A stretch of 26,234 nucleotides of DNA from IMG/VR virus record IMGVR_UViG_3300044911_002797, positions 1 to 26,234 of that record; one strand, 5' to 3'. Source of the DNA: a virus. Shown piece by piece: positions 9,902-26,192 of this stretch. The stretch's first letter is position 1. Each line of letters begins with the position of its first letter. Position numbers and translations under genes: made by a program. The notes under the pieces were generated by a model. The model worked only from the letters and a program-made list of their open reading frames with translations, searched no databases and was not told where the DNA came from.

Positions 9902-9909
9902 TATAAATA
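9902..9909 (+). promoter_or_regulatory. Late promoter box, portal gene
   Basis: A perfect T4-late TATAAATA, with 7 nt between it and the portal ATG at 9917. Transcription would start 1-2 nt before the ATG. This is the first box after the gp15 gene, which has none. Confidence 0.65.
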
Positions 9910-9916
9910 TGTATTA

Positions 9917-11752
9917 ATGGAAAATACATACGATGATGGGAAAAGTTCCACATTTGGTAAGCAATTGATGTCATATGTGATGTCAAAATTGCCATATTCT
10001 GGCTTGGATATGAATCAGATGGCAGATCAAATGAATCCGAAATACCGATATTTCGAGAATACTGGTGAACGGAGAGCTGAAGTTCTTTCTAAATATTCTG
10101 TAACTCAAAATCACGATTATAATAATCAAGGAGTATCGAATATTTCTTCTGATAAAAGATACTCCCAAGTAATGTATGCAAATATCCAAAAGGATAAAGC
10201 CGCTAGGATAAAAGATTATAGGATCATGGCAGCTTTTTCCGAAGTTGCTAAAGCTTTAGATGAAATATGCGATGAAGTTATAAATGTAGACACAAACAAT
10301 AATAGCTGCACTGAACTTAAAATAAAAGACATTCAAGTATCAGAATTTGAATATGAAACTCTCCAAAAAGAATTCAAAAAGTATGTTTCGTATTTTGATT
10401 TTGAACATAAAGGTTGGTCTTACTTTAGACAATTATTAGTTGAAGGCGAAGTTTTTTGGGAGCATATTATTCATGAAGAATATAAAGAAGAAGGTATTTT
10501 AGGTGTGGTGCAGATACCAACTGAATTGGTGGATCCAGTTTTTTCAAACGTACAGAACGTGATGGTTAAGGGGTATTTGTATAGGAAGCCGATATACGAT
10601 CCAAAGAATCCAATGAAGCAAGTTAAAGTAGAATATGTTCCATTGGATAAAAACCAAGTTACTTACGTTCACTCTGATGTATGGAATGAAGCTAAAACCA
10701 TGCGTCTTCCATTTCTAGAAAATGCTAGAAGAGCATATAGACAATTGTCTATGTTAGAGGATTCTATAATAATTTATAGATTAGCTAGAGCGCCAGAAAG
10801 ATTGGTGTTTAATGTTGATGTTGGTAATATGCCGCATCCTAAAGCTGAAGCATATCTTAAAAAGTTGGTATCTCAATATTGGTCTAGCAAAACGTATGAT
10901 CCAGATCAAGGTGGTATTGTTCAGAAATTTAATCCTCAATCTATTTTAGACAATTTTTGGTTTGCAAAAAGAACTGGTTCTGAAGGAACTAGTGTAATAA
11001 GTTTGCCTGGTGGACAAAATCTAGGTCAATTAGATGACTTAATGTATTTTGTTAAAAAATTATATCAGTCTTTAAATGTTCCCACTACTAGATTAGATCC
11101 TCAAGATGCATTCCGTGATGGAGCAGATATGCTTCGTGAGGAATTAAAGTTTGCTAAATTTATAGTTCGATTGCAGCAAGAGTTTGCTGCTGGAATTAAA
11201 AATGGCTTTGTAACTCATTTGCAATTAAAAGGATTGATGAAAGACTTCGAATTGAAGGAACATAATTTAGATATAACATTTAATGTTCCCACAAATTTCT
11301 ATGAAGTCAGACAACAGCAAAAGATCGAACTTAAAACTTCTACATTCGGAAATATAGCTAATATTCCAAGTGTTTCTCAGACCTATGCTCAGAAAAAGTA
11401 TTTGGGATGGACTGATTTGGATATTAAAGCTAACAGAGAATTTTTAAGAAAAGACAAAGCTTTTAATTGGGAATTGCAACAAATTGAAAATTTAGGTCCA
11501 GATTGGAAAGAGCAAATAAAAGCTCAAGCCGAAGCTATGGGTGGAGGCATGGGTCCAGATGCTGGTGGCGGAGGTGGTATGCCTCCGATGGGTGGCGGAG
11601 GTGGAGGAGGTGGTGGAATGCCACCTCCATTTGCTGGGGGAGAAGCTACAGTAGGTGGAGATGCTGGGGGAGAAGCTCCCCCACCAGAAGCAGCTGGTGG
11701 CGCACCAGCACCAGAAGCAGCTCCTTCAGCAGGTGGTCCTCCAGCAGCATAA
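9917..11752 (+). CDS. gp20: Portal vertex protein, gp20-like, with Gly/Pro/Ala-rich tail
   Basis: This 611-residue protein is the dodecameric portal through which DNA is packaged. Diagnostic segments are MLEDSIIIYRLARAPERLVF (around residue 290), DVGNMPHPKAEAYLKKL, GTSVISLPGGQNLGQLDDL and FVKKLYQSLNVPTTRL, all in the gp20 order. T4 gp20 is 524 residues; here the last 75 or so (from about 537) are a low-complexity tail of Gly, Pro, Met and Ala blocks, encoded by a local island of high G+C with short direct repeats and a strong hairpin. Tandem stops (TAATAG) end the gene. A TATAAATA late box lies 7 nt before the ATG. The tail is not typical of the family and may be disordered. Confidence 0.92.
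   Translation: MENTYDDGKSSTFGKQLMSYVMSKLPYSGLDMNQMADQMNPKYRYFENTGERRAEVLSKYSVTQNHDYNNQGVSNISSDKRYSQVMYANIQKDKAARIKDYRIMAAFSEVAKALDEICDEVINVDTNNNSCTELKIKDIQVSEFEYETLQKEFKKYVSYFDFEHKGWSYFRQLLVEGEVFWEHIIHEEYKEEGILGVVQIPTELVDPVFSNVQNVMVKGYLYRKPIYDPKNPMKQVKVEYVPLDKNQVTYVHSDVWNEAKTMRLPFLENARRAYRQLSMLEDSIIIYRLARAPERLVFNVDVGNMPHPKAEAYLKKLVSQYWSSKTYDPDQGGIVQKFNPQSILDNFWFAKRTGSEGTSVISLPGGQNLGQLDDLMYFVKKLYQSLNVPTTRLDPQDAFRDGADMLREELKFAKFIVRLQQEFAAGIKNGFVTHLQLKGLMKDFELKEHNLDITFNVPTNFYEVRQQQKIELKTSTFGNIANIPSVSQTYAQKKYLGWTDLDIKANREFLRKDKAFNWELQQIENLGPDWKEQIKAQAEAMGGGMGPDAGGGGGMPPMGGGGGGGGGMPPPFAGGEATVGGDAGGEAPPPEAAGGAPAPEAAPSAGGPPAA
11632..11683 (+). repeat. Direct repeat and hairpin in the portal tail coding region
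   Basis: TGCTGGGGGAGAAGCT occurs at 11632-11647 and again at 11662-11677. The second copy also forms a perfect 8-bp hairpin, TGGGGGAG (11665-11672) with CTCCCCCA (11676-11683) around AAG. The surrounding stretch is far richer in G+C than the rest of the window. Confidence 0.8.
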
Positions 11753-11765
11753 TAGTGTAATTAGA

Positions 11766-11773
11766 TATAAATA
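11766..11773 (+). promoter_or_regulatory. Late promoter box, gp13-like gene
   Basis: A perfect TATAAATA, 5 nt before the ATG at 11779. The predicted +1 falls on the A of the start codon, giving a leaderless mRNA. Confidence 0.7.
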
Positions 11774-11778
11774 GTTAT

Positions 11779-12957
11779 ATGTCATGCGACACTATAACTC
11801 CTATCTCAGCTTTTCAAAGTACTAATTTAAATTCTAAAATAGATTCTTTTCATCGTTTGGGTGAAAGAATTGTCAGGAGTTTAGGTGCGCCATTAGTTTC
11901 AGTTGAAGTAAGCCAGGATCAATTGTACGAAAATATTTCTATTGCATGTGAAATGTTTTCTAAATTTGCAGGATTTACTAAGGAGTATTTAATTTTTGAT
12001 TCGTCTTTATATGAGAGAGGTAAAGGAATTAGAATTGATACTTTATATACGTTAGCAAATAAACAATTATCTTTAAAGGAAAAAATAAGTCATACTACTG
12101 AATCACATTCTACTTCTCAGTATCTATCTAGACCTGATACTGAATATGTTTGTATAACTCCTATAGATAAAATATATTTCAGTTTAATGCCAGATTTGTC
12201 TAGCTATTTTCCCGATGGAGTATTTCAGAATCAAATATTTGATTTTTCTACATATAATTCCATATTAACATCTTTTTCAACTAATCAAAATGCTTTAGTC
12301 TCTTCGGTCCCAGTTTCTGGATACTTTAAATCTTCGTATTCTGATAAGATAACAATAGGCGGCGAAGAATCTAATTCAAGTTTGAAAAAATTTAATAACA
12401 TGTTCGATTATGATATAATGGATTATAGAAGAGTCGTTGCAATAACAGATTTTGAAGAAGGTACTAGTGCTGGCTTGAATACTTTGTTTACTATCGAGCA
12501 GACATTAGCTCAGCAAACTTATTTCTCATATGCTATGGGAAATTATGGTTTTGACTTGATAAGTTGGTGGACTGTTAAAAATTGGTTAGAAACTAGGGAA
12601 AAGGTTTTAGCAATTAGACGTTCATATGAATTTGATGACAGAACTCAGTATTTGAGATTATATCCAGAACCTACTAATGCAGTTAGATTTTATGGGGTGT
12701 TTCCAGCATATGTAGAAAGACCATTAAGAGATATAATTAAAGAGTTGTGGGTTTACAAATATTCATTAGCTTTAACTAAAATTAATGTTGGTTTGGTTCG
12801 TGGTAAGCTTGGATCAACTTCAGTATTGGGTGGTCAAATATTCTCTCAAGATTTGATCCAACAAGGAATTACAGAACGTGATGCTTTAGAACAGCAACTA
12901 TACACTACTTCTGCTGGATTGGGAGATTCAGATCCAGTTACATTTTTCATAGGCTAA
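11779..12957 (+). CDS. gp13: Neck protein, gp13-like
   Basis: This 392-residue protein resembles the T4 gp13 neck protein. It opens with FHRLGERIVRSLGAPLVSVEV (split near residue 33), matching the family's LG-x-R-V-M-R-x-L-G-A-P start. A helical segment with SQDQLYENISIACEMFSKF follows. Its end has LWVYKYSLALTKINVGLVRG, then GGQIFSQDLIQQG and a Glu-rich helix, the family's W-x-x-K-Y-x-x-A-x-x-K pattern. gp13 binds the portal after DNA packaging and seals the head before tail joining. The central region is longer than in T4 gp13 (309 residues). In T4 gene 13 lies before 15 and 20; here it follows the portal gene. A perfect late box stands 5 nt before the ATG. Confidence 0.75.
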   Translation: MSCDTITPISAFQSTNLNSKIDSFHRLGERIVRSLGAPLVSVEVSQDQLYENISIACEMFSKFAGFTKEYLIFDSSLYERGKGIRIDTLYTLANKQLSLKEKISHTTESHSTSQYLSRPDTEYVCITPIDKIYFSLMPDLSSYFPDGVFQNQIFDFSTYNSILTSFSTNQNALVSSVPVSGYFKSSYSDKITIGGEESNSSLKKFNNMFDYDIMDYRRVVAITDFEEGTSAGLNTLFTIEQTLAQQTYFSYAMGNYGFDLISWWTVKNWLETREKVLAIRRSYEFDDRTQYLRLYPEPTNAVRFYGVFPAYVERPLRDIIKELWVYKYSLALTKINVGLVRGKLGSTSVLGGQIFSQDLIQQGITERDALEQQLYTTSAGLGDSDPVTFFIG

Positions 12958-12964
12958 AAAATAT

Positions 12965-12972
12965 ATTAAATA
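12965..12972 (+). promoter_or_regulatory. Late promoter box, lipoprotein gene
   Basis: ATTAAATA, a one-to-two-base variant of the late box, ends 5 nt before the ATG at 12978. Confidence 0.55.
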
Positions 12973-12977
12973 CTTAT

Positions 12978-13511
12978 ATGAAATCAATTTTAAAGTTTTT
13001 AATTATTTGTTTCATTTTAACTGGGTGTGCATCTCCAGTTAAGAGATATTCTGAAATATCTTTTAAAATAGATAAGAAAGAAGAAATAGTTAAAGAGAAA
13101 GCTAAAGATTTGATATCAGCTGGACAAAGATTAATAGAAAAAGGTGATGTCAAAACTGGACTATATGCTATCAAAAAAGGCCAAACTTTACTAGGTACAG
13201 ATCTAGATAGTGGTTCTGAAATTTTAGAATCTAAAGATATCACCGCCAGCATAAAGCTAACTTTTGAAGAAGGTAAAGAAATTGTCGAAGATGTAGACGA
13301 ATTGGAAGAAGAATTAAAGGCGGAAACAAATGATATGGCTTATGATTCTATTGGAAAAGATGCAGTAGAAAAATATAAATTTTGGTTAAGCATGAAACTA
13401 TATGGAGTGCTTTTGACTATAATTGGAGCTGTAGGTGTATATTTTTATTTTAAACCATCTGGTTTAATTTCTGGAACATTCAGTGCAATAACATCCTTCT
13501 TTAAAAAATAA
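12978..13511 (+). CDS. Lipoprotein with C-terminal membrane helix; unimolecular spanin candidate
   Basis: This 177-residue protein has a lipoprotein signal: basic start MKSILK, hydrophobic stretch, then lipobox LTGC with Cys17 as the lipidated residue, followed by Ala, which favours outer-membrane sorting. The middle (about 25-130) is charged and helical, with Glu/Lys-rich stretches. A single transmembrane helix follows at about 140-158 (KLYGVLLTIIGAVGVYFYF), with a short tail ending in FFKK. One protein spanning from outer-membrane lipid to inner membrane is the architecture of u-spanins such as phage T1 gp11, which fuse the two membranes in the last step of lysis. It sits inside the head gene block with its own late-type box. 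A virion or other envelope lipoprotein cannot be excluded. Confidence 0.6.
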   Translation: MKSILKFLIICFILTGCASPVKRYSEISFKIDKKEEIVKEKAKDLISAGQRLIEKGDVKTGLYAIKKGQTLLGTDLDSGSEILESKDITASIKLTFEEGKEIVEDVDELEEELKAETNDMAYDSIGKDAVEKYKFWLSMKLYGVLLTIIGAVGVYFYFKPSGLISGTFSAITSFFKK

Positions 13512-13512
13512 T

Positions 13513-13962
13513 ATGGCTATATTAAAGAAGGATGACAGATTTATTCAAGGAATATTCAAACCAAATAATCCTAAAAAGTTTATAGGAAAGCATGCGATTT
13601 TTAGATCTTCGTTTGAAAGAAAGTTTTTCTTATGGGCAGATTCCAATCCTAATGTATTAGAGTGGGGATCTGAAAACATTATTATACCATATAAAAGTCC
13701 AGTAGATGATAGATGGCATAGATATTATGTAGACAATTTTGTAGTCCTTAAAGAAGGAGCTAATATAGTTAAGTATTTGGTCGAAATAAAACCTTATAAA
13801 CAAACTATACCTCCAGTAGTTTCTAAAAGAAAAAAGAAATCCACTTTAATATACGAATCGACTCAATGGGCTATTAATCAAGCCAAATGGGAAGCAGCAG
13901 AAAAATTTGCAAAATCTAAAGGATATAAATTTATTAAAATAACTGAGAAAGAATTATTCTAA
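13513..13962 (+). CDS. gp4: Head completion protein, T4 gp4-like
   Basis: This 149-residue protein matches T4 gp4 (also 150 residues): GIFKPNNPKKFIGKHAIFRS (13-32), then FERKFFLWADSNPNVLEWGS (34-53), IIIPYKSPVDDRWHRYYVDN and VEIKPYKQ. Asp74, Glu91 and Lys93 form a D-(x)n-E-x-K set typical of PD-(D/E)xK nuclease folds, to which this family has been related. The T4 pattern at the Asp is PDF; here it is VDN. In T4, gp4 finishes filled heads before tails attach. It begins 1 base after the lipoprotein gene's stop and ends exactly where the opposing gene's stop begins (TAATTA). Confidence 0.82.
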   Translation: MAILKKDDRFIQGIFKPNNPKKFIGKHAIFRSSFERKFFLWADSNPNVLEWGSENIIIPYKSPVDDRWHRYYVDNFVVLKEGANIVKYLVEIKPYKQTIPPVVSKRKKKSTLIYESTQWAINQAKWEAAEKFAKSKGYKFIKITEKELF

Positions 13963-15126
13963 TTAATTCCCTTTAGAAAAACCTTTGGCCGTGTCTTTTA
14001 CTCTGTGCCCAGATTCCATAGATCCTATACCACCAACGCCTAAAAATTGAGAAGCTTTCCCATTGGCTATAGTTTTGTATGAAGTAAACTCGGGAAATTC
14101 TGGATTTACAAATGACTTGCGTTCCAAATCAAAAAATTTAACAAGACAATTGTCTGTTAAATTATAAATTAATTTGAATCTATAATTGCCTTGAATTCCT
14201 TTAGTTTCATTTCCATCTATAAAATCTACTAATCTTTCAGCTTTTTGTAAGGCGTTTTCGGGAACTACTTCTCTTCTAACTATTTTTTCTGGTTTGAATT
14301 TTATATTAGTAGCTAGATCGGTATCATAATCAGCCCAATCATTATCTGGAGAAATATATGATGTTATATATTTTTTGCCATTTATTTCCATTACACTTTC
14401 AGGAAACATCTTTTGATATCCATCTAATAATATATCTAAATAAGATTTTAGGTCTTCATCGTTAATTGTAACTTTTAATGGTAGAGGTCCATCTTGCGGA
14501 ACGTATTTTTTATACTTAGATCTCATGTATCTAAGTCTAGCAAACAAATCTCTTGATATGCTTTGAGTTTCCCCATATTGGGAAAACATATTATTCAAAG
14601 TTCCTCCTATCAATGGCTTTTCAGTTTCTTCATAAAATCTACCAACTTTATGAGGTTTCCCATTTATCATTTGAATAATTCCATGAGTATCTACTAATCT
14701 CTTAATTAATTCTTTTGGTGCAATTGCGCTGATTTTTTCTTTAGGAATACGATTCCCTTTATCATCCAATTTCCAATCTCCAGTGACTGGATCAATTTCA
14801 TAATTTTGAAATGCCGCAAAAAATTTTCCACTAGTTAAAGGTGCCGCAGCACCAGCACTCATCTTCAATTCTTCTGCCCTGTTACTCAATCTATCTCCTA
14901 CTTCCGCAGCGCCTTTTTTAGAACCTCTAGTTCTAGTTCTTTCGGCATGAGTTACATTTTGAGGAGATAAAAATTCATGGCCTAATTGTCCTGAGGACTT
15001 ACTAGTTGTATTTTCTTCATCATTAGCTCCGCCATAATTACTACCTTTAGCTTTTGCTCCACCTCTTCCTCTAGCTTCTAGAAGCCTAAAATATTCTTTA
15101 AATGACATACTCTCATCAAACATCAT
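13963..15126 (-). CDS. Hypothetical head-block protein, candidate internal (capsid-targeted) protein
   Basis: I do not recognise this 387-residue protein. It opens with MMFDESMSFKEYFRLLEARG; the LLE|A site at residue 17 fits the L/I-x-E rule of the gp21 prohead protease, and the preceding helix resembles capsid-targeting leaders of T4 internal proteins. Residues about 19-75 are Gly, Lys, Arg and Ser-rich and probably disordered; the rest looks folded, with many strands and helices. It lies on the minus strand inside the head operon, next to the protease gene, and shares a divergent promoter region with it. A late box (ATTAAATA) is 5 nt upstream of the ATG. A packaged or ejected protein is the leading guess. 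Confidence 0.7.
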   Translation of the reverse strand: MMFDESMSFKEYFRLLEARGRGGAKAKGSNYGGANDEENTTSKSSGQLGHEFLSPQNVTHAERTRTRGSKKGAAEVGDRLSNRAEELKMSAGAAAPLTSGKFFAAFQNYEIDPVTGDWKLDDKGNRIPKEKISAIAPKELIKRLVDTHGIIQMINGKPHKVGRFYEETEKPLIGGTLNNMFSQYGETQSISRDLFARLRYMRSKYKKYVPQDGPLPLKVTINDEDLKSYLDILLDGYQKMFPESVMEINGKKYITSYISPDNDWADYDTDLATNIKFKPEKIVRREVVPENALQKAERLVDFIDGNETKGIQGNYRFKLIYNLTDNCLVKFFDLERKSFVNPEFPEFTSYKTIANGKASQFLGVGGIGSMESGHRVKDTAKGFSKGN

Positions 15127-15131
15127 TCAAC

Positions 15132-15139
15132 TATTTAAT
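15132..15139 (-). promoter_or_regulatory. Late promoter box, minus-strand internal-protein gene
   Basis: Read on the minus strand this is ATTAAATA, followed by GTTGA and then the ATG ending at 15126. It has the same 5-nt spacing as the plus-strand boxes and lies back-to-back with the protease promoter. Confidence 0.6.
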
Positions 15140-15169
15140 TAAAATGTTCTTAATTTAGAGGATTATAAT

Positions 15170-15186
15170 TATAAATAACATAAATA
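15170..15186 (+). promoter_or_regulatory. Tandem late promoter boxes, prohead protease gene
   Basis: TATAAATA at 15170-15177 and CATAAATA at 15179-15186 lie 9 bp apart; the second ends 5 nt before the ATG at 15192. The duplicate could give two start points 9 nt apart, one leaderless and one with a 9-nt leader. Confidence 0.62.
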
Positions 15187-15191
15187 ATTTT

Positions 15192-15854
15192 ATGTCATTG
15201 AGATTAATTGCTGAGAAGCCAGAATGGAATGAAGAATTTGAATATATTGTAGAGGAGAAAGACAGAAAATCTCCCTCTACATTATTTATCAAAGGCCCAT
15301 ACATGATGGCAGAAGGTGTGAATAGAAACAATAGATTATATCCATTACATGAATTAGTTCGTGAAGTTGATAGATACAAATCTGAAATGATTACAAATGC
15401 AAGATCATTAGGAGAACTTAACCATCCTCAGAGTGCTGAAGTTAATCCTGAGAGAGCTTGTCACATGGTTACTGAATTACATCAAGATGGAAACATCTTC
15501 ATTGGAAAAAGTAAAGTTCTTTCGACACCAGTAGGTTTAGTAGTGAAAGCATTAATTAATGATGGAGTTAAATTGGGGATGAGTTCTAGAGCATTAGGAC
15601 AATTGGAAGAGAAGGGTGGCAGGAATATTGTAAAGAATTTAAGATTAGTAGCTATCGACTGCGTAGCTGATCCTAGTTACCCAAAAGCATTTGTAAATGG
15701 AATTTTAGAATCTAAACAGTATGTATTAAGTGAAAACGGTAATTATGAAGAATTATATTCCAACTTTGAATCTAGTTTGAATAATTTACCTAAACGTGAT
15801 GTAGAATCCTTCTTGAAAGAATCTATCATCAATTTCTTAAAAAACTTAAAATAA
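15192..15854 (+). CDS. gp21: Prohead core protease, gp21-like (peptidase family S77)
   Basis: This 220-residue serine protease cleaves scaffold and capsid proteins during head maturation. The family core is clear: NRNNRLYPLHELVREV (44-59), GELNHPQS (74-81) with the catalytic His78, KVLSTPVGLVVKALINDG, and KLGMSSRALG (127-136) with the nucleophile Ser at 131 or 132. DCVADPSYPKAFVNG (156-170) completes the pattern. Near the N terminus, LIAE|K (5-8) fits the enzyme's own IxE cleavage rule, suggesting self-processing. It lies upstream of the scaffold and capsid genes as in T4, except that two extra genes are interposed. Two late-type boxes in tandem precede it, the nearer one 5 nt from the ATG. 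Confidence 0.92.
   Translation: MSLRLIAEKPEWNEEFEYIVEEKDRKSPSTLFIKGPYMMAEGVNRNNRLYPLHELVREVDRYKSEMITNARSLGELNHPQSAEVNPERACHMVTELHQDGNIFIGKSKVLSTPVGLVVKALINDGVKLGMSSRALGQLEEKGGRNIVKNLRLVAIDCVADPSYPKAFVNGILESKQYVLSENGNYEELYSNFESSLNNLPKRDVESFLKESIINFLKNLK
15839..15854 (+). repeat. 16-bp direct repeat, upstream copy
   Basis: AAAAAACTTAAAATAA spans the last codons and stop of the prohead protease gene. An identical copy lies at 16656-16671, after the FkbM-like gene, so the two copies bracket that gene. Confidence 0.7.
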
Positions 15855-15858
15855 TTTT

Positions 15859-16671: not shown

Positions 16672-16679
16672 ACTAAATA
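16672..16679 (+). promoter_or_regulatory. Late promoter box, Lys-rich prohead protein gene
   Basis: ACTAAATA ends 5 nt before the ATG at 16685. It directly follows the downstream copy of the 16-bp direct repeat. Confidence 0.55.
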
Positions 16680-16684
16680 AAAAT

Positions 16685-16993
16685 ATGACAAAAATCGAAA
16701 GAGAAAAAATTGTAGATTTTATAGATGCGCTAATGGAAAGCGATTATAGCAGAGCTAATAAAGATTTGGGTATTGTGGTTAAAGAAAAAATTAAAGCAAA
16801 GCTTAATGAGGCGAAACATGTAAAGCCATTTGGAAAAGAAACTGAATGCGATGATGAATGTGATAATGATGGTGAAAGTAACAAATCAAAAAAAGGATCA
16901 AATAAAAAGAAATCGCAAAAACCTAAAAAGAAATCGCAAAAACCTAAAAAGGGACAATTGCCACCTTGGTTAAAAAATAAAGGTAAAAAGTAA
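16685..16993 (+). CDS. Small prohead-core-like protein with acidic patch and Lys-rich repeat tail
   Basis: This 102-residue protein starts with a helical segment, KIVDFIDALMESDYSRANKD (8-27), then IVVKEKIKAKLNEA. Similar starts occur in small T4-like prohead-core or head-assembly proteins, and LME|S (16-18) fits a gp21 cleavage site. Residues 52-64 form an acidic, Cys-containing patch (ECDDECDNDGE). The rest is lysine-rich with a tandem KKSQKPK unit and ends LPPWLKNKGKK. It lies just before the scaffold gene, the position of T4 genes 67 and 68, which encode prohead core proteins. A late-type box is 5 nt from the ATG. The function is inferred from location and composition. Confidence 0.55.
   Translation: MTKIEREKIVDFIDALMESDYSRANKDLGIVVKEKIKAKLNEAKHVKPFGKETECDDECDNDGESNKSKKGSNKKKSQKPKKKSQKPKKGQLPPWLKNKGKK
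16907..16948 (+). repeat. 21-bp tandem repeat inside the Lys-rich gene
   Basis: Two identical 21-bp units (16907-16927 and 16928-16948) each encode KKSQKPK. In-frame duplication lengthens a basic tail, and unit number may vary between relatives. Confidence 0.9.
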
Positions 16994-17011: not shown

Positions 17012-17019
17012 GATAACTA
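17012..17019 (+). promoter_or_regulatory. Variant late promoter box, scaffold gene
   Basis: GATAACTA ends 5 nt before the ATG at 17025. The core AACTA variant recurs as TATAACTA before the capsid gene, so this may be a genuine subclass. Confidence 0.45.
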
Positions 17020-17024: not shown

Positions 17025-17945
17025 ATGGGAAAAGAAATTTCTAACATTCTTAAGGAAGCTACACAAGGCATCTTGACCGAAGAAACACTTCAGCAAATCG
17101 AATCTGCATTCAATGAAGCTGTCAATGAACGTGTTAAGATTCATGTCGAAAAAGCATTAAACGAACAAGACAGTGAATATAGTACAAAGCTCGAAAAGCT
17201 TTTAGAAACTATCGATGTAGATAGAACTGCTAAAATGAAAAAACTCGTCGAAGCTGTTGATACTAATAATGCAAAGAAATTACAATTAGTTGTCAAACGT
17301 TATCAAAAAGTTATTAGCGAGCAAGCATCTCAATTTAAAGATGATTTGGTTGATAAGATTTCCCATTATTTAACATTATTTGTCGAAAGCAAAATCCCGC
17401 AGAAAACTGTCGAAGAATCTGTTAGAAATAATAAAGCTAGAATCATCTTAAATAATTTAAGAGAGTCTTTAGCTATTGACACCGCTTTATTGAGCGATTC
17501 ATTGAAAGACGCATTAGTAGACGGTAAGAAGCAGATTATAGAAGCTAAACAAGTTGCTCGAAAAGCTACACAAGAACTTGAATTAGTAAAAGAAGAATTT
17601 TCCAAAACAGAAGCTAAATTACTTATTGAAAGTAAGACTGCGAAACTTACTCCTAAGAAGAGAGAATATGCTCTCAAGGTATTGGAAGGCAAGTCTGTTA
17701 AATTTATCAAAGAAAACTTAGATTATACATTAAGTCTTTTTGATAAGAAAGAAGAAGAGCGTTTATCGATGCTCAAGGAACAAGCTTTTGAAACTAGAAA
17801 AGTTAAGTCTGATCGTCCTGTAACATCAGAAGTTAAATCAAATGTATTTGGTGTTGAACCAGATGAAAATGAATTAATTAGCGAATCTAGTCAACAAAAA
17901 TTTGGCCATGTTAATAATTATTTGAGTGAATTGAGTAAATATTAA
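17025..17945 (+). CDS. gp22: Prohead scaffolding core protein, gp22-like
   Basis: This 306-residue protein is almost entirely helical and highly charged, as expected for the major scaffold that fills the prohead and is later degraded. It opens MGKEISNILKEATQGILTEE and has several LxE or IxE sites (LKE, LTE and others) for gp21. Coiled-coil stretches are rich in Glu, Lys and Gln. The segment RNNKARIILNNLRESL and the C-terminal GHVNNYLSEL region fit gp22 relatives. It is directly upstream of the capsid gene, the usual place. The start is the ATG at 17025; the in-frame TTG at 17010 is not preferred, and a late-type box (GATAACTA) lies 5 nt before the ATG. Confidence 0.85.
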   Translation: MGKEISNILKEATQGILTEETLQQIESAFNEAVNERVKIHVEKALNEQDSEYSTKLEKLLETIDVDRTAKMKKLVEAVDTNNAKKLQLVVKRYQKVISEQASQFKDDLVDKISHYLTLFVESKIPQKTVEESVRNNKARIILNNLRESLAIDTALLSDSLKDALVDGKKQIIEAKQVARKATQELELVKEEFSKTEAKLLIESKTAKLTPKKREYALKVLEGKSVKFIKENLDYTLSLFDKKEEERLSMLKEQAFETRKVKSDRPVTSEVKSNVFGVEPDENELISESSQQKFGHVNNYLSELSKY

Positions 17946-17969
17946 TAAGCCTCTAAAATTTGGTAGAAG

Positions 17970-17977
17970 TATAACTA
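17970..17977 (+). promoter_or_regulatory. Variant late promoter box, major capsid gene
   Basis: TATAACTA, one base from the T4 consensus, lies 57 nt before the capsid ATG. Initiation about 6 nt downstream would give a leader of about 52 nt, unlike the leaderless neighbours. Confidence 0.5.
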
Positions 17978-17985
17978 CTTGAAAT

Positions 17986-18008
17986 CCTGTGTCGAGTGAC
18001 ACTTGAGG
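17986..18008 (+). promoter_or_regulatory. Leader hairpin of the major capsid mRNA
   Basis: CCT/AGG (17986-17988 with 18006-18008) and GTGTC/GACAC (17989-17993 with 17998-18002) pair around a GAGT loop, with a 3-nt TTG bulge. It lies near the predicted 5' end of the leader, before an A/G-rich stretch that leads to the ATG. Stabilising the mRNA end or controlling translation are possible roles. Confidence 0.5.
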
Positions 18009-18034
18009 TCGTAAAAAAGAAAGAAAAATAAAAC

Positions 18035-19648: not shown

Positions 19649-19657
19649 TTTTCCCTT

Positions 19658-19891: not shown

Positions 19892-19915
19892 GTAAATATA
19901 ATTACCTAATAATCA

Positions 19916-19945
19916 AGCCCATAGAGAAATCTATGGGCTTTTTTT
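19916..19945 (+). terminator. Rho-independent terminator after the 77-residue gene
   Basis: AGCCCATAGA (19916-19925), loop GAAA, TCTATGGGCT (19930-19939), then a T-tract to 19945. It shares loop and layout with the capsid terminator and runs into the next late promoter box. Confidence 0.92.
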
Positions 19946-19952
19946 ATAAATA
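19945..19952 (+). promoter_or_regulatory. Late promoter box after second terminator
   Basis: A perfect TATAAATA, 5 nt before the ATG at 19958. Its first T is the last T of the preceding terminator tract, so termination and restart are packed together. Confidence 0.68.
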
Positions 19953-19957
19953 ATTAT

Positions 19958-20158
19958 ATGTTGGAATTTAAAAACCCCATTCCAGTAGTTACTCCATTTG
20001 GAGAAGGTTACGCAATATATGCAGTATGGACGGGACCATTCGAAACTGACATATGGGCTGTAGCGTTATGCGATGGAGGTTTTATAAGACACTTTAGAAC
20101 TGATCAAATAAAAATGCATGTTAGCGGAACATTAGGTATATCTAAGAAAGATAATTAA
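19958..20158 (+). CDS. Small conserved-looking hypothetical protein
   Basis: This 66-residue protein has a compact beta-like pattern: VVTPFGEGYAIYAVWTGPFE, then WAVALCDGGFIRHFRTDQIK. It looks like a small folded SH3- or Sm-like barrel, and I have the impression of similar proteins in marine T4-like phages, which I cannot check. A perfect TATAAATA box overlaps the end of the previous terminator's T-tract and stands 5 nt before the ATG, so it is expressed late as the first gene of a new unit. No function can be assigned. Confidence 0.6.
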   Translation: MLEFKNPIPVVTPFGEGYAIYAVWTGPFETDIWAVALCDGGFIRHFRTDQIKMHVSGTLGISKKDN

Positions 20159-20161
20159 ATA
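20154..20161 (+). promoter_or_regulatory. Late promoter box, candidate internal-protein gene
   Basis: ATTAAATA ends 5 nt before the ATG at 20167 and overlaps the stop codon of the previous gene. Confidence 0.52.
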
Positions 20162-20166
20162 TAATT

Positions 20167-20538
20167 ATGAAAACTTTTAACGAAGCCTATAATAAATTGA
20201 TATCAGAATATTCCAATAAAGAATTAATTTCTTTTATAGAAAAAAGAAAATCTGGTGCAAAAAAAATAGAAAAAAGTTCTAATGCAAAAGGCGGACCTGC
20301 AAAGCTAACTGCTATACACTTTGCTGCCAAAGATATTCCATACAAACAAGCTATATCTATGGCTTCTAAAGATAATTGCGCTGAAAAGTTGAAAGAAAAA
20401 GGAGACGAATTACTTAAGAAATTAAAATCTTGGAGTACTATGTCTCAAAAAGAATTTCAACATGTAATGGGACAACTAGAAGCGTATGGAGAAGTTTATA
20501 TTAAAACTGTCAAACCAGATTCTATCAAATTAGATTAA
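20167..20538 (+). CDS. Hypothetical late protein with capsid-targeting-like N terminus
   Basis: This 123-residue basic protein begins MKTFNEAYNKLISEYSNKEL. The start resembles the T4 internal-protein leader (MKTYQEF followed by an IAE cleavage site), and LISE|Y at residues 11-14 fits the IxE rule. The rest is Lys-rich and helical (KKRKSGAKK-like composition around 25-45), compatible with DNA contact inside the head. A late-type box (ATTAAATA) is 5 nt before the ATG. Its stop overlaps the stop of the opposing gene within the palindrome TTAA. An internal head protein is proposed; the family is not recognised. Confidence 0.6.
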   Translation: MKTFNEAYNKLISEYSNKELISFIEKRKSGAKKIEKSSNAKGGPAKLTAIHFAAKDIPYKQAISMASKDNCAEKLKEKGDELLKKLKSWSTMSQKEFQHVMGQLEAYGEVYIKTVKPDSIKLD

Positions 20539-20813
20539 GCCCAATCTTTACAGGCTTGTGCTTGTGGACTACCAGCTTTGGCTTTTCCACATTTATGTCT
20601 GGCCTTAAAACTCTTTTTACGTTTAGAATTTCCAGACTTACCAGTTACTCTGACACCAGCTTGACCCCAATGAATTCTTTTAATTGATCCATCTGGTTGC
20701 TTAGCACATTTCATCCACTTTTTTCCCTTTCTAGTGGAATGAGCCTTTTGAGTAACCTTAGTGCATTGAGCTTCAAGTAGTAAAGCTTTTTCAAGTAATT
20801 GATCGAAATTCAT
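20535..20813 (-). CDS. Small basic Cys-containing protein, candidate internal head protein
   Basis: This 92-residue protein is strongly basic. It begins MNFDQLLEKALLLEAQC, where LLE|A at residue 14 fits the gp21 cleavage rule after a short hydrophobic helix. The body contains STRKGKKWMKCAKQPDGSIK, RIHWGQAGVRVTGKSGN, KRKKSFKARHKCG and QACKDWA; four Cys and two His could bind metal. The tryptophan and R-V-T-G-K pattern looks like a conserved marine-phage small protein, though I cannot name the family. High charge and the leader suggest it is packaged with DNA. It is on the minus strand with its own late box, 5 nt from the ATG. Confidence 0.65.
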   Translation of the reverse strand: MNFDQLLEKALLLEAQCTKVTQKAHSTRKGKKWMKCAKQPDGSIKRIHWGQAGVRVTGKSGNSKRKKSFKARHKCGKAKAGSPQAQACKDWA

Positions 20814-20818
20814 ACAAT

Positions 20819-20826
20819 TATTTAGT
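20819..20826 (-). promoter_or_regulatory. Late promoter box, minus-strand basic protein gene
   Basis: On the minus strand it reads ACTAAATA, then ATTGT, then the ATG ending at 20813. Spacing is 5 nt. It is divergent from the box at 20834. Confidence 0.58.
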
Positions 20827-20833
20827 AAAAAAG

Positions 20834-20841
20834 AATAAATA
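20834..20841 (+). promoter_or_regulatory. Late promoter box, structural gene at 20847
   Basis: AATAAATA ends 5 nt before the ATG at 20847. The divergent box for the minus-strand gene lies only 7 bp upstream. Confidence 0.58.
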
Positions 20842-20846
20842 TTATC

Positions 20847-21515
20847 ATGGCAATATATTCAAATCCTACAACCTATCCTACTTTCAACAGTTTTGTATTT
20901 GATGTAGGATCACAAACTCCTTCATTAATTGGACCATCACTTTCCGCAGTAGATAATTCTGTTGTATTCTTACCAACAGTCTCTTATTATCAAGCTAGAG
21001 TAGCTATCCCTGTCACTTCATTCACCACTCCTCCTGTCAGTGCCGCGCAAGCTAATGCATTGAGTGCTATGGGCACTTATTGGACTGATATATCTTCTAC
21101 TGGAGTATATGTCGGAGAATTAGTTGAAGCCAATGCATATAGACTTTTATCATCTACTTTTGCTGGACAACAATATTTAAGTTCCCAATATGCAGCATTG
21201 ACTTCCTCATTTATTCTATCTCCAAAATTTGGTACAGGAACTGTCAATGGAACTAACAAGACTTTAGTAGGTATACTTTATAATAGTGTTGCTGGCACTT
21301 CTACTGCAACAACTACTTTATCAGTAGCTAATAACGTTCAATTTAGTGTACATCCATTATATCATGGATCTACTTTTGCTTTGTACTTCTCTGACAGAAG
21401 TACTACATTGTTCACTGTAAATACCGCTACTGCTCTTCAAACTGGATTATCTGCGAATGAATTCTCCGCTAGAGGCCCAGAAGAATTGCGTAAGAGATTA
21501 TTAGGATATATTTAA
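20847..21515 (+). CDS. Probable virion structural protein of unknown role
   Basis: I do not recognise this 222-residue protein. It is rich in Ser, Thr, Ala and Tyr with many predicted strands (for example NKTLVGILYNSVAGTSTATT) and few charges until the last 20 residues, which hold EFSARGPEELRKRLLGY. Such composition is usual for phage decoration, tail or baseplate proteins. A late-type box (AATAAATA) is 5 nt before the ATG, so it is expressed with the structural genes. The divergent gene 33 bases upstream uses its own box in the same short region. Its stop overlaps that of the opposing gene by TTAA. Confidence 0.6.
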   Translation: MAIYSNPTTYPTFNSFVFDVGSQTPSLIGPSLSAVDNSVVFLPTVSYYQARVAIPVTSFTTPPVSAAQANALSAMGTYWTDISSTGVYVGELVEANAYRLLSSTFAGQQYLSSQYAALTSSFILSPKFGTGTVNGTNKTLVGILYNSVAGTSTATTTLSVANNVQFSVHPLYHGSTFALYFSDRSTTLFTVNTATALQTGLSANEFSARGPEELRKRLLGYI

Positions 21516-21787
21516 TTATATAAATTAAACATATATTCAGGAATTCCAAGGTCTATTAAACGAGAGTTTGATAGACCTTTTCCTTTTAATATTTCTATAA
21601 CAGATTTCCAAAATTTTCTAAATGCAGCGTTTCTACGAGAACCAATCTCCATATTTTTTATTGAAAAGTATTTTTTGCTAAATTTATTATCCCAATTAGA
21701 TTCTAGTTTTTTAGCCCATTCTGGTATGTCTCTAAAATCAAATTCTAATTGATTCATCATCGATTCATAATAAGTATCAAATTTCAT
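21512..21787 (-). CDS. Small hypothetical late protein
   Basis: I do not recognise this 91-residue protein. It begins MKFDTYYESMMNQLEFDF and has an aromatic, Lys-rich helical body (IPEWAKKLESNWDNKFSKKY) with a basic stretch RRNAAFRKFWKSV. The N terminus is loosely like the leaders of the other minus-strand late genes but lacks a clear LxE|A site. It sits alone on the minus strand, has a TATTAAATA box ending 5 nt before the ATG, and shares a 31-bp divergent promoter region with the next plus-strand gene. A role in the virion or assembly is plausible. Confidence 0.6.
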   Translation of the reverse strand: MKFDTYYESMMNQLEFDFRDIPEWAKKLESNWDNKFSKKYFSIKNMEIGSRRNAAFRKFWKSVIEILKGKGLSNSRLIDLGIPEYMFNLYN

Positions 21788-21792
21788 GTGAT

Positions 21793-21801
21793 TATTTAAT
21801 A
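21793..21801 (-). promoter_or_regulatory. Late promoter box, minus-strand small gene
   Basis: On the minus strand it reads TATTAAATA, then ATCAC, then the ATG ending at 21787, with 5-nt spacing. Confidence 0.58.
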
Positions 21802-21805
21802 CTCT

Positions 21806-21813
21806 AATAAATA
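21806..21813 (+). promoter_or_regulatory. Late promoter box, baseplate operon
   Basis: AATAAATA ends 5 nt before the ATG at 21819. With the opposing box at 21793-21801 it forms a 31-bp divergent promoter. The next two genes follow at 1 and 3 bases and lack clear boxes. Confidence 0.58.
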
Positions 21814-21818
21814 TTCTT

Positions 21819-22424
21819 ATGCCACTAATTAATAGCGAAGACGGTACAGTCCCTCAACAAGCTTTTAAATACGCCGTAAATGGCACCGCAGATAGTCTAA
21901 TGGCGGCTACTAAACAAGCGATGTGCTTAACTACTGGAATATTTGGCATACTGTCAAATCCGTCTTCTATAATGGGCGCTTTAGCAGGAGCGGCAATAGG
22001 ATTAGCAACATCTATTATTGGAATAGCTACTAAAATTATCATGGATAAAGTCCGTGATTTAACTAATTCAATATTATCTCCACTGAGATTAATTACCGCA
22101 GAAATACAAAATTTAACCGCTAAATTATTAAGTATACAACAAACTGTATATAGATTAAAAGCAAAATCTAAAGCTTTAGAAGACTATTTAAAAAGTAGGC
22201 AAGATTGTAGCGCACAAGCTGCAAATATGTTGAATTGTTTGATTCAAAATATTAATAATAAAATAACAAATAAAGTGGCGAAGAATATAGATAAATCACT
22301 TACTCCTTTAGTTAATAGCGTAGATAAAAGTATGAGAGGGGTAAATGGCGTGTTGCATAGTCACATTAAAAGACACACAAGATTTGTTGATAAAGCGGAT
22401 AAACAAACTAAATTATTAATATAA
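21819..22424 (+). CDS. Hydrophobic helical protein upstream of baseplate hub
   Basis: This 201-residue protein has a long hydrophobic, glycine-rich region (about 35-75), including GALAGAAIGLATSIIGIATK, which could form one or two membrane-inserting helices. It is followed by a long helical segment (76-130), then a Cys pair (130 and 140) and an Asn/Lys-rich C-terminal part. It ends 1 base before the hub gene and has a late box 5 nt before its ATG, so it leads the baseplate operon. A role at the tail tip, perhaps as a chaperone, plug or membrane-active ejection protein, is suggested by position; I recognise no family. Confidence 0.6.
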   Translation: MPLINSEDGTVPQQAFKYAVNGTADSLMAATKQAMCLTTGIFGILSNPSSIMGALAGAAIGLATSIIGIATKIIMDKVRDLTNSILSPLRLITAEIQNLTAKLLSIQQTVYRLKAKSKALEDYLKSRQDCSAQAANMLNCLIQNINNKITNKVAKNIDKSLTPLVNSVDKSMRGVNGVLHSHIKRHTRFVDKADKQTKLLI

Positions 22425-22425
22425 T

Positions 22426-23655
22426 ATGCCAATTAAAAAAGACGGTAAAAATTATGGATTTTTCAGAGGCATGGTTCTACAAAATAATGATCCTTTGAGA
22501 ATGGGAAGAATTAAAGTTTTTATACCAGAATTTTCAGCACATGTTGCTAGATCATCTGGAATGGATCCTACTATCTCGGAAGCAAGGTTTGCTGGTGGAG
22601 CTAACATAGATACTTTTATAAATGCTGAAGTAAGAGAAAAATTAAAATCAGCACTTCCTTGGTGCGAACAAGCTTCTCCATTAATTGGTTCGGGTACGGC
22701 TGGAGTGTGTGATGTTAAGAATAATAGAGCTACTGTTGGTGAAGGATATAGGGGAAGTGAATTTGAAGTAATAGGGGAAGAGTCTATCACACCAACAGGA
22801 GAATCAGTTTCTCCTAAAGCTGCGATGTCCGTAAACGCTATACCCGGCGGCTTCAGTCAAGGATACAAAACTGGATTAATCGACACCTACAATGAATCTT
22901 TAGCTCCAACTGGATACAACAATGCCGTGAAAGGAATGTTATCTATACCAAAGGTTGGATCTCATGTATGGGTGTTTTTCGAAAATGGAAACATACAGCA
23001 TCCAGTTTATTTTGGATATGTATTTGATAAAAGCGATTGGAATTCTGTATTCAATCCTCAAGAGAGTAATCCCGATCCGCACTATCCCGGCGGATCAGAG
23101 AACATCCCAGACGATGGCCAGCCTTTCTTTAGTACTGGAAAGACTGTATTAAATACTAAAGCTGGATCTTTAGAGTTTATAGAAACTGATGATTTAGAAA
23201 AAATAAAAATTTCCCAATATAGCGGATCATTTTATGAAATATCGAATCATGTAACTGCCGAAGTTTGTGTTGAAAACAGAACCTCAGTGGTAAATGAAAA
23301 TAGTTTTGAAACAGTCAAAGGCAAAAAGGTCACTACAGTGTTGGGAGATTGTCATGAAACTTACAGAGGAAATCATGTAATTCATTACGGAGATCCAGAT
23401 AACAAATATCTATATGAAAGTTGGATGGAGGCAGCTGAACCGGCCTTTCAACAAGCATCATTATTTAATAAAAAAGAAATTACCGCAGATGATCCAACAT
23501 TAAACGGAAAATCTAAAGGCAATAGTAATGCCAATTACTCGCATCCATCAAAATTGACTTTAGAAAAAGATTGGACTAGTCATATTAAAGGTGAGGCTGG
23601 AAATCCAAGTTCATATTCAAAAAAGGTACAGCATACGTATTTAGGAGTAAAATAA
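22426..23655 (+). CDS. Baseplate hub protein with gp5-type OB domain
   Basis: This 409-residue protein starts with the OB-fold domain of contractile-tail hubs: GFFRGMVLQNNDPLRMGRIK (11-30), VFIPEF, then LPWCEQASPL and, later, GMLSIPKVGSHVWVFFENGN with HPVYFGYVF. This is the pattern in T4 gp5 and VgrG-like proteins, which form the trimeric hub below the tail tube. The C-terminal half (about 240-330) has short repeating strands suited to a beta-prism or beta-helix. No lysozyme domain, as in T4 gp5, is visible, so cell-wall cutting must come from another gene. It is followed 3 bases later by the spike gene. Confidence 0.82.
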   Translation: MPIKKDGKNYGFFRGMVLQNNDPLRMGRIKVFIPEFSAHVARSSGMDPTISEARFAGGANIDTFINAEVREKLKSALPWCEQASPLIGSGTAGVCDVKNNRATVGEGYRGSEFEVIGEESITPTGESVSPKAAMSVNAIPGGFSQGYKTGLIDTYNESLAPTGYNNAVKGMLSIPKVGSHVWVFFENGNIQHPVYFGYVFDKSDWNSVFNPQESNPDPHYPGGSENIPDDGQPFFSTGKTVLNTKAGSLEFIETDDLEKIKISQYSGSFYEISNHVTAEVCVENRTSVVNENSFETVKGKKVTTVLGDCHETYRGNHVIHYGDPDNKYLYESWMEAAEPAFQQASLFNKKEITADDPTLNGKSKGNSNANYSHPSKLTLEKDWTSHIKGEAGNPSSYSKKVQHTYLGVK

Positions 23656-23658
23656 TAT

Positions 23659-24708
23659 ATGCCAGCAGTAAAAATTAAACAACCCGCTAGTAAAGAGTCG
23701 CAAGCCGAAGTTCTAAAAAACGTAGCCGAAAAGGTTATGGATGTGGAAATGCAAATGCCGCCAGGTGGATCTTACATGATCCATTACGAAAAAAACAAAT
23801 ACGAACACATAGGGTTATCCACTAATGTGTCTCCACCTACTAGAAAGCACAATGCAAAATTTAGACCTAAAGCCGTCGAAATTGATAGTGATGGTTCTTT
23901 TCAAAGACAAGAGCAAGTTCAATATGTAGAAGAAGTAGAAAACTCTAGGTTTCCTTGTGGCTTCTATAATATAGAAGTTGGTAATAGATATAATCTTACT
24001 GTAGGAAGTGGTGGTATGGGGTTAAAGACTGCTGGAAGTTTTAAAATAGCCGGTGATGGTAGAGGGGTAATTACTGCTGGAGATGAGTTATATATGTCGT
24101 CTCAAGGAAATATTAATATAGCCAGCAGTGACAATATATCTATTGTAGGAAAATCATTAACATTGGAAACGCCCAATCAAGTAGTAGTAAACTCCAATTT
24201 AGGAGTAAACAAAAACATGATTGTAAACGGAGGAGCATTTATTGATGGAGAAGTGTTTTTAAACCATATTAGCTGTCCAGCTGAAGTTCAATATACTGGA
24301 GGTGGTATAGGTAGTTATGGGCAGTTAATGGTCGGCGCTGGTCCAACTGGAAGTATTAAAGGTAATGGTGGCGGTGGTGCAATTATAGCCTATGCAGATG
24401 TGAGTTATATTAAGAGTTTATATCAAAGTATCGGAGCACCAAAAGCTCCGTGGACAATGGTGGATAAAGTTCCTGTTATGGTATTGCCAGACAGCTCAAT
24501 TGGACTGGCTTCATCTGTTGGGAATACAGCAGCATCAAATCCTACATATTCAGTATTTGTATACCCACATGAACATCCATTTAATAATATTCCATTGTCG
24601 TTTACTACTGGGAATAATAAAAATAGAGACAATGCCGCTGCTATGAACAGCGGACAAAATTTAATGAAAGCTAAGCCAATATCACATGGTTATAAAACTC
24701 CTCAATAA
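23659..24708 (+). CDS. Beta-helical baseplate central spike protein
   Basis: This 349-residue protein contains a run of short strands characteristic of trimeric spike beta-helices: NRYNLTVGSGGMGLKTAGSF, GVITAGDELYMSSQGNINIA, then NISIVGKSLTLETPNQVVVN (about 108-185). The distal part holds a glycine-rich loop and YPHEHPFNNIPL (302-313). His304 and His306 form an H-x-H, as in P2 gpV and phi92 gp138 spike tips, where it binds iron. It follows the hub gene by 3 bases and probably completes the membrane-piercing device that T4 builds into gp5 itself. The iron site is inferred from the motif alone. Confidence 0.72.
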   Translation: MPAVKIKQPASKESQAEVLKNVAEKVMDVEMQMPPGGSYMIHYEKNKYEHIGLSTNVSPPTRKHNAKFRPKAVEIDSDGSFQRQEQVQYVEEVENSRFPCGFYNIEVGNRYNLTVGSGGMGLKTAGSFKIAGDGRGVITAGDELYMSSQGNINIASSDNISIVGKSLTLETPNQVVVNSNLGVNKNMIVNGGAFIDGEVFLNHISCPAEVQYTGGGIGSYGQLMVGAGPTGSIKGNGGGGAIIAYADVSYIKSLYQSIGAPKAPWTMVDKVPVMVLPDSSIGLASSVGNTAASNPTYSVFVYPHEHPFNNIPLSFTTGNNKNRDNAAAMNSGQNLMKAKPISHGYKTPQ

Positions 24709-25353
24709 TTAGAGGATTTCATCGACTAATCCATACTTTAAACAAGAGGCAGAGTCTAGCCATATATCTCTTTTAAGGATAGCTTCCAATTCTTTCATTG
24801 GAAATTTGGTATATTGTTTGTAAATGCTTTTAATAATTTCCATTAACTTAACATTATTTTCCTGTTCATCTTTGAGATGCTCAAATGTCCCACATGCAAA
24901 TGAAGATAGTTGATGAATTAACATTAGCGAATTTTTTCCAATAAATCTTTTAGCTCCAGCTACTGTCATTAGTGTTGCCGCACTGGCGCAGCTTCCTTCC
25001 ACATAAGTCCATACTTTAGATTTCAAACCTCTAATTGTATCTACTGTGGATAGTCCAGCCAATAAATCTCCACCAAAACTATTAATTCGTAAATGTATAA
25101 TTGGAGTGTATGTTGGATTGTTTATGACTACAGCAGATTGACATAATTTACAATCAATTTCTCTCAGCAATCTATTAACTTCGGCACACGAAGTTAATGT
25201 GACATCCGAATAAAAATGTATTGTATTATCGAAAGATTTAATAGATCCTGCCGTATTTAAAATATCTGCCATTGTTAAATGTTGGCTAAGCTGTTCGGCG
25301 TTAATAGCAATGTCTTGCTCCTCTTCAGTAGACCCCCAGTATTTTTTTCGCAT
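24709..25353 (-). CDS. clpP: ClpP-like serine protease
   Basis: This 214-residue protein has the ClpP fold: PIIHLRINSFGGDLLAGL (84-101), then VEGSCASAATLMTVAGAKRF (118-137) with the nucleophile Ser124, and NSLMLIHQLSS with His147. RDIWLDSASCLKYGLVDEIL (195-214) supplies Asp196 and the conserved ending. All three triad residues are present, so it should be active. The first 45 residues are atypical. ClpP needs a Clp ATPase, not seen here, so it may pair with a host ATPase or act alone, possibly on phage structural proteins. Its stop abuts the spike gene's stop (TAATTA). It starts 6 bases after the PAS gene ends, probably in one operon. Confidence 0.85.
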   Translation of the reverse strand: MRKKYWGSTEEEQDIAINAEQLSQHLTMADILNTAGSIKSFDNTIHFYSDVTLTSCAEVNRLLREIDCKLCQSAVVINNPTYTPIIHLRINSFGGDLLAGLSTVDTIRGLKSKVWTYVEGSCASAATLMTVAGAKRFIGKNSLMLIHQLSSFACGTFEHLKDEQENNVKLMEIIKSIYKQYTKFPMKELEAILKRDIWLDSASCLKYGLVDEIL

Positions 25354-25359
25354 ACTTAA

Positions 25360-25923
25360 TTATTTACCTAAAACTTTAGATAAACCAAGTATGAATACTC
25401 TCTTGTGATTATCATCAAATATATCAGTAGCAGTACACTTAACTTTAGTTATTTCTTTAGTTATTCTATGCTGATATCTAAAAATTTCTTCAAATGGATT
25501 ATTGTGTTCAATTAAATTTATCCATTTCTCTTGGACGACTTCTCTATCTTGTGGATGTACTGATAAGAGCCAATTATGTCCCAATGCCTCACTTTCAGTA
25601 AGACCTGTTAACGATACCCATTTACCATTAACTTTAATACAATCTCCATTAGAATCGCAAACAAATTGTCCGATCTCTAAACTTTCTAAAATAGAATTTA
25701 CAATTTTGTATTGAAGTTGCATCTGCGAATACATGCTAGATTGCACTTCCTTTATATTACTAATTTTTTCTGGAACTTGACTTATAAGTTGCATTGAAGT
25801 ACTAAAAAAACTATTTTTTATTTTTTTAATTAAAAGATTATATGTAGTATATAATATAGCTAATACAGAAAGCGCATAATAAACATGCTCGACATTATTA
25901 AACAATTTTAAAAAATTCTCCAT
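25360..25923 (-). CDS. Membrane-anchored single PAS-domain protein
   Basis: This 187-residue protein has one membrane helix (about 13-32), a coiled linker (about 45-75) and a PAS domain (76-184). PAS features are GQFVCDSNGDCIKVNGKW (85-102), LTGLTESEALGHNWLLSVHP (105-124) with the typical W-x-x-x-V-H-P-x-D-R, and the closing strands KCTATDIFD and VFILGLSKVL. No kinase, cyclase or HTH follows, so it is a sensor without an obvious output domain. PAS domains bind ligands or cofactors and mediate dimerisation. It lies between a small membrane protein and ClpP on the minus strand. The domain call is strong, the function open. Confidence 0.8.
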   Translation of the reverse strand: MENFLKLFNNVEHVYYALSVLAILYTTYNLLIKKIKNSFFSTSMQLISQVPEKISNIKEVQSSMYSQMQLQYKIVNSILESLEIGQFVCDSNGDCIKVNGKWVSLTGLTESEALGHNWLLSVHPQDREVVQEKWINLIEHNNPFEEIFRYQHRITKEITKVKCTATDIFDDNHKRVFILGLSKVLGK

Positions 25924-25944
25924 AAAAATTTATATTAATATTAG

Positions 25945-26178
25945 TTATTGACTATCATCTTTTTTAAAAAAACCTGATACTGAAGTATCAAAAAAAGCCT
26001 TCATTGCGATGACTGCTGGGAGTACAGATTTTATAGTCAATTTAATCCAATCTAATAATTTGAAAGCTTCTAAGCTATGGATGTTATCTATTTGAGCTTC
26101 GAATCCTATCAATAAAGAAGCGAAAAAATAAAACGCAATTTTAAAATACATTGATATAGTTGAACTTTTTTCTCCCAT
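25945..26178 (-). CDS. Small two-helix membrane protein, holin candidate
   Basis: This 77-residue protein has two likely membrane helices: about 8-28 (SMYFKIAFYFFASLLIGF) and about 46-65 (LTIKSVLPAVIAMKAFFDTS), and ends with a charged tail (GFFKKDDSQ). Size, two helices and charged tail resemble class II holins, which open the inner membrane at lysis. The linker carries charges (AQIDNIHSLEAFKLLDW). A late-type box (ATTAAATA) lies 5 nt before the ATG, consistent with lysis timing. No endolysin gene is in the window. Other small membrane proteins would look the same, so the call is tentative. Confidence 0.5.
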   Translation of the reverse strand: MGEKSSTISMYFKIAFYFFASLLIGFEAQIDNIHSLEAFKLLDWIKLTIKSVLPAVIAMKAFFDTSVSGFFKKDDSQ

Positions 26179-26183
26179 ATTAT

Positions 26184-26192
26184 TATTTAATA
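26184..26192 (-). promoter_or_regulatory. Late promoter box, holin-candidate operon
   Basis: On the minus strand it reads TATTAAATA, then ATAAT, then the ATG ending at 26178, with 5-nt spacing. It may drive the holin candidate, the PAS gene and clpP. Confidence 0.55.

Follow-up and report, generated by a model that had tools for sequence, protein, structure and literature searches.

The late promoters of bacteriophage T4 have no −35 element and are characterized by an AT-rich start region (PMC2988020). Their −10 box, of the TATAAATA type, lies mostly 21–29 nt before the ATG, and strong Shine–Dalgarno (SD) sites are found at 7 nt. In Actinobacteria and Deinococcus a large share of genes is expressed from messages that open with the start codon and have no SD (PMC4633059, PMC9031893). 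A phage mRNA, that of lambda cI, has also been named leaderless (PMC9031893). Leaderless mRNAs of phages are so far known mainly from single genes, and a search restricted to open-access literature returned no report of a genome-wide leaderless T4-like phage, nor of any tailed phage based on leaderless messages. The uncultured phage clade described here shares with T4 the −10 box at late genes, the AT-rich start, the lack of a −35 element and homologues of gp55 and gp45; it differs in that the box stands 5–7 nt before the ATG, without SD, and in that gp33 has not been found. As in the case of lambda cI, mRNAs starting at AUG are predicted, but across the genome rather than for one gene. The difference from Actinobacteria and Deinococcus is that the system belongs to a phage and combines a phage-specific late sigma box with a class of sigma70-type promoters. 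As far as sequence alone can tell, TAAATA forms, with high confidence, the core element of T4-type late promoters in this clade, and late mRNAs as well as early mRNAs made from sigma70-type promoters are predicted to start at or near the AUG.

The window, that is the whole stretch of DNA under analysis, is a 26.2 kb virus record from a T4-like myovirus, encoding the portal gp20, gp13, gp4, the protease gp21 and the major capsid protein gp23. Cyanophages are its nearest cultured relatives by gp23, with ∼33% identity in this protein, and close relatives of the window's gp23 are present on hundreds of uncultured IMG/VR contigs. Five near-complete relatives (G001–G005; 204–236 kb, 34–41% GC) were analysed whole, their gene starts being taken from a simple ORF caller. 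T4 (35% GC) and the cyanophages Syn9 and S-SM2 served as controls for motif spacing, and the cultured Pelagibacter (SAR11) phage HTVC008M was also compared.

Within the window, 13 of the 34 gene starts are preceded by an exact TAAATA at spacing 5 (the box ending 5 nt before the start), two have it at spacing 7, and it is absent at spacings 4 and 6; shuffled upstream regions of the same starts contain on average 0.15 boxes at spacing 5 and never more than 2 (1000 shuffles). A count that ignores annotation gives 12 occurrences of TAAATA-N5-ATG, compared with a mean of 1.44 and a maximum of 6 in 300 dinucleotide shuffles, and 0–3 at every other spacing. The original prediction, according to which late mRNAs are leaderless, was to be refuted if no spacing peak emerged genome-wide: the peak at 5 was found when the relatives were surveyed. 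Eighty related loci hold 283 copies of TAAATA at spacing 5 and ∼30 at other spacings, the profiles of other motifs being flat, and the five large relatives carry 72, 42, 42, 38 and 27 copies versus ∼4–8 elsewhere. Among all combinations of 6-mer and position before ATG, the top one in G001, G002 and G004 is TAAATA at 5, which is outranked by other, repeat-like strings in G003 and G005. Both ATG and GTG are enriched as start codons at spacing 5; TTG is not.

All 14 box sites listed in the original prediction are present as described, 12 as exact TAAATA and two with one mismatch. On the plus strand, exact boxes end 5 nt before the ATG at 11768–11773 (ATG 11779, gp13-like neck protein), 12967–12972 (ATG 12978), 15181–15186 (ATG 15192, gp21 protease), 16674–16679 (ATG 16685), 19947–19952 (ATG 19958), 20156–20161 (ATG 20167), 20836–20841 (ATG 20847) and 21808–21813 (ATG 21819). 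On the minus strand they occur at 15132–15137 (ATG 15126), 20819–20824 (ATG 20813), 21793–21798 (ATG 21787) and 26184–26189 (ATG 26178). The one-mismatch forms, both on the plus strand and 5 nt from the ATG, are AAAATA at 15848–15853 (ATG 15859) and TAACTA at 17014–17019 (ATG 17025). Full TATAAATA is found only before the genes at 11779 (11766–11773) and 19958 (19945–19952), and the conserved part is TAAATA, whose position is fixed, whereas the first two bases are weakly conserved. Two further exact boxes stand at 7 nt, one at 9904–9909 (+) before the gp20 portal gene (ATG 9917; predicted leader of 0–2 nt) and one at 25361–25366 (−) before the gene for a ClpP-like protease (ATG 25353). The latter gene, ClpP/head-protease-like (24709–25353, minus strand), adjoins one for a protein that has a PAS domain and a hydrophobic N-terminus (25360–25923, same strand), an unusual pair for a block of virion genes.

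The distance between box and ATG is kept across orthologues although the flanking sequences diverge. Among orthologues of gp21, with divergent flanks, the box stands at 5 in 41 of 49 and at 6–7 in another 3 (44/49 at 5–7). The gene at 21819 has it at 5 in 10 of 14 orthologues and at 7 in the other 4 (14/14 in total), that at 20847 at 5 in 14/15, and that at 16685 in 6/6. Corresponding figures are 17/32 at 5 plus 5 more at 6–7 for the gp13-like gene and 11/19 at 5–6 for gp20, and the one-mismatch box of gene 17025 is found at 5 in 16/56. The region 513–8742, which had been described as lacking a good box, mostly does so; the exception is an exact TAAATA at 6273–6278 (+), 5 nt before GTG 6284, which a single one of 13 orthologues shares. 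The helicase gene at 7114 bears a sigma70-type promoter instead.

The major capsid gene departs from this arrangement, having no box at 5. Of 70 loci, 27 (the window plus 26 of 69 checkable others) have a box 70–130 nt upstream of gp23; a pyrimidine–purine step occupies nucleotides 5 and 6 after it in 21 of these 27, with no ATG at +1. Box and initiator lie ∼93–111 nt from the ATG. In the window the predicted promoter is TAAATA at 17936–17941 (+), 93 nt before the gp23 ATG, followed by TTAAT/A, where the stroke marks the predicted start at 17947. The leader predicted from this start (17947–18034, plus strand, ∼88 nt) would fold into two covarying hairpins with CCU/AGG closing pairs, succeeded by an A-rich tract that forms its tail. 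The structure was written by hand and scored on 12 close leaders: seven pairs are changed on both sides, and none of 500 shuffles reaches the covariation score. RNAalifold returned no structure for a set of 21 gp23 leaders, because the distant ones misalign, and a search of the window against Rfam gave no match. The conserved structure is also seen upstream of gp23 in loci L003–L020 and L030.

Genes devoid of the late box show a different pair of enriched strings, TTGA-type 28–30 nt and TATAAT 6 nt before the ATG. TTGANN followed by 16–17 nt and a −10 element ending at −7 corresponds to the canonical sigma70 geometry, and at these genes +1 would then fall on the A of AUG. On a 31 by 21 grid of gap lengths, TTGA-N18-TANNNT-N6-ATG is the top cell in G002, G004 and G005 (18–20 versus ∼2); G001 reaches at most 9, with the adjacent spacing N19, and the repeat-rich G003 is less clear. 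No TTGA-TANNNT-N6-ATG peak was detected in T4, Syn9, S-SM2 or HTVC008M. Sites of this type precede 22, 39, 41, 38 and 54 genes in the five relatives, compared with 2, 2, 5, 5 and 1 when a control spacing is used; no more than one gene has both such a site and a late box. The example in the window, TTGACA-17-TAATTT at 7079–7107 (+), ends 6 nt before ATG 7114 of the helicase gene, whose transcript is predicted to be leaderless; the arrangement is kept in 8 of 12 orthologues. Two other candidates in the window count only as weak: a match at 4075, which overlaps a near-late box, and one at 5491, retained in 0 of 10 orthologues. In G005 (G005:C1:220748–228407, L140) six predicted leaderless promoters of the sigma70 type follow each other closely and resemble one another in their −35 and −10 elements, probably an early gene block. 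Early transcripts are hence also predicted to be leaderless, a class that the original prediction, correct for the late genes, had missed together with the gp23 exception and its predicted ∼88-nt leader.

The box meets what is expected of a T4-type late promoter, being of the TATAAATA type, located about one helical turn before the predicted +1 and followed by an AT-rich start region; no −35 conservation was seen upstream of the late boxes. Under the proposed mechanism, host RNA polymerase equipped with the phage sigma factor gp55 would read TAAATA and begin transcription at the sixth nucleotide past the box, which in most cases is the first base (A or G) of the start codon. At spacings of 6–7 the mRNA would begin 1–2 nt ahead of the AUG. 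Early genes would employ ordinary sigma70-type promoters whose −10 element is placed in the same way relative to the AUG. Both the promoter geometry and the initiator fit a +1 at or near the AUG; the 5′ ends of the transcripts are unmapped and thus inferred.

A search for homologues of gp55 and gp33 had been called for together with the original prediction. Each of the eight relatives tested encodes a gp55 homologue (E 1e-16 to 1e-28), as do HTVC008M and Syn9; none was seen in the window, a 26 kb fragment too short to test presence. Iterative searches found the gp45 sliding clamp in 5/5 large relatives. The gp33 co-activator was detected in the relatives neither with PF16805 nor by iterative search, although a diverged small protein could be missed. 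Since gp33 was not found, the claim is limited to a box that works like a gp55-type late promoter, its dependence on gp55 and the binding of this factor being inferred; a complete T4 activator set is not claimed. In G001 the gp55 ORF is 502 aa long and its two match halves are ∼330 aa apart (G001:C1:103522–105027, within L088), possibly because this late sigma factor contains an intein or another kind of insertion.

The AT-rich character of these genomes might suggest that intergenic DNA yields TAAATA near ATG by chance or base composition. This explanation can be considered already refuted by the shuffle tests and by the flat profiles of other motifs and spacings. AT-richness is not the cause of the peak, because one relative with a strong peak has a GC content of 41%; moreover T4, at 35% GC, shows no clear TAAATA peak at 5 and the cyanophages Syn9 and S-SM2 show none. 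A more substantial alternative is that TAAATA plus 5 nt represents a translation-initiation signal of a host that does not use SD, transcription starting elsewhere and the mRNAs carrying leaders, as both the fixed position of the motif relative to the start codon and the almost complete absence of SD enrichment in these phages would allow. Five independent tests nevertheless favour, at the level of sequence, a T4-type late promoter that starts at or no more than 2 nt from the AUG. When genes were classed by homology to HTVC008M and T4 proteins, an exact box at 5 was found for 21 of 63 late homologues and 0 of 66 replication/early homologues (Fisher p 4e-8), a bias that a translation signal does not account for. 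The spacing is one-sided, not centred: in G001–G004 it is 5 for 186 genes, 6 for 66 and 7 for 34, while spacings 0–4 remain at background (∼1 per genome and spacing). This is expected of transcription, because a start nearer than 5 would drop the AUG from the transcript. The initiator dinucleotide is keyed to the box rather than to the ATG. In the spacing-7 set, where the ATG comes 2 nt later and does not dictate these bases, 81% have a pyrimidine at nucleotide 5 past the box and 83% a purine at nucleotide 6; the start therefore tracks the box, not the codon. Nucleotide 5 is likewise a pyrimidine in 81% of the spacing-5 set, versus 61% at −1 of non-box genes, and the spacing-6 set has no clear initiator. 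The same box and initiator recur far from the ATG of gp23, and boxless genes often carry a sigma70 promoter at the matching place: a two-element promoter with a 16–17 nt spacer is needless for translation. A translation signal is accordingly regarded as most improbable.

The boxes might still be promoters whose true start lies a few nucleotides off, generating short leaders of ∼1–5 nt and messages that are not strictly leaderless. The existence of spacings 6 and 7 and the 2-nt leader implied by the spacing-7 initiator point in this direction, but at the dominant spacing the pyrimidine–purine step falls exactly on the AUG, and spacings below 5 do not rise above background in G001–G004; short leaders as the general rule are deemed very unlikely. 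G005 exhibits, besides 5 and 6, a second peak at spacing 4 (23 genes, 11 with GTG starts; L129–L140), which is unexplained by a +1 fixed at nucleotide 6 and counts against it. Leaderless late mRNAs made from T4-type promoters, as originally predicted, remain the best-supported reading, on the grounds of spacing, gene class, initiator, the gp23 promoter and the sigma70 promoters placed alike. The extension of the original prediction to most structural genes was too strong, because many late genes are internal to transcription units and directly adjoin the gene before them.

The ribosome would have to initiate on a 5′-terminal AUG with neither a leader nor an SD site, a mode of translation that is inferred, the host being unknown. 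The absence of SD before box genes, noted at the outset, is borne out: SD-like 4-mers precede only 2.7% of them (local control 8%) and 11.5% of other unambiguous starts, the figures for T4 and HTVC008M genes being 63% and 62%. Where a gene has neither promoter, the median distance to the upstream gene is 1 nt, and if that neighbour is on the same strand, the distance is 12 nt or less in 68% of cases. Coupling is therefore the likely route to promoterless genes, and the downstream genes of a unit are inferred to be reached probably by translational coupling. The phage bS21 protein of HTVC008M was not found in the relatives. Their tRNA content varies: G002 harbours 23 clustered genes and a predicted tmRNA (L098 = G002:C1:60001–80000, and L097), and G001 has none. 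Two scans of GTDB genomes for a host by means of gp23 gave no match. Promoters of Bacteroidota differ from the TTGACA/TATAAT form. As the early promoters have this form, they would tentatively speak against a Bacteroidota host.

HTVC008M provides a cultured point of comparison. It contains 14 TAAATA-N5-ATG sites, of which 12 coincide with annotated starts; many of these belong to structural genes, including those for head closure, DNA end protector, baseplate and tape-measure proteins. It differs from the clade in that its other genes use SD-like sites and no leaderless sigma70 class exists, which amounts to a mixed strategy. In 80 marine contigs related to HTVC008M the peak at 5 is present (88 versus ∼18) and SD peaks are retained. 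T4, a pelagiphage and the clade may, by inference, form a series that runs from leader plus SD through a mixed state to a leaderless one.

Taken together, it is probable that the uncultured clade gave up leaders and SD sites, early and late RNAs starting at the AUG, with coupling within units and structured-leader exceptions such as gp23. The partial form in cultured pelagiphages makes the leaderless idea testable now. If the interpretation is true, it suggests a host that translates 5′-AUG messages well, an annotation rule, start = box + 6 nt, would become available for a large group of uncultured phages, and a change of spacing would be shown to suffice to make the T4 late system leaderless.
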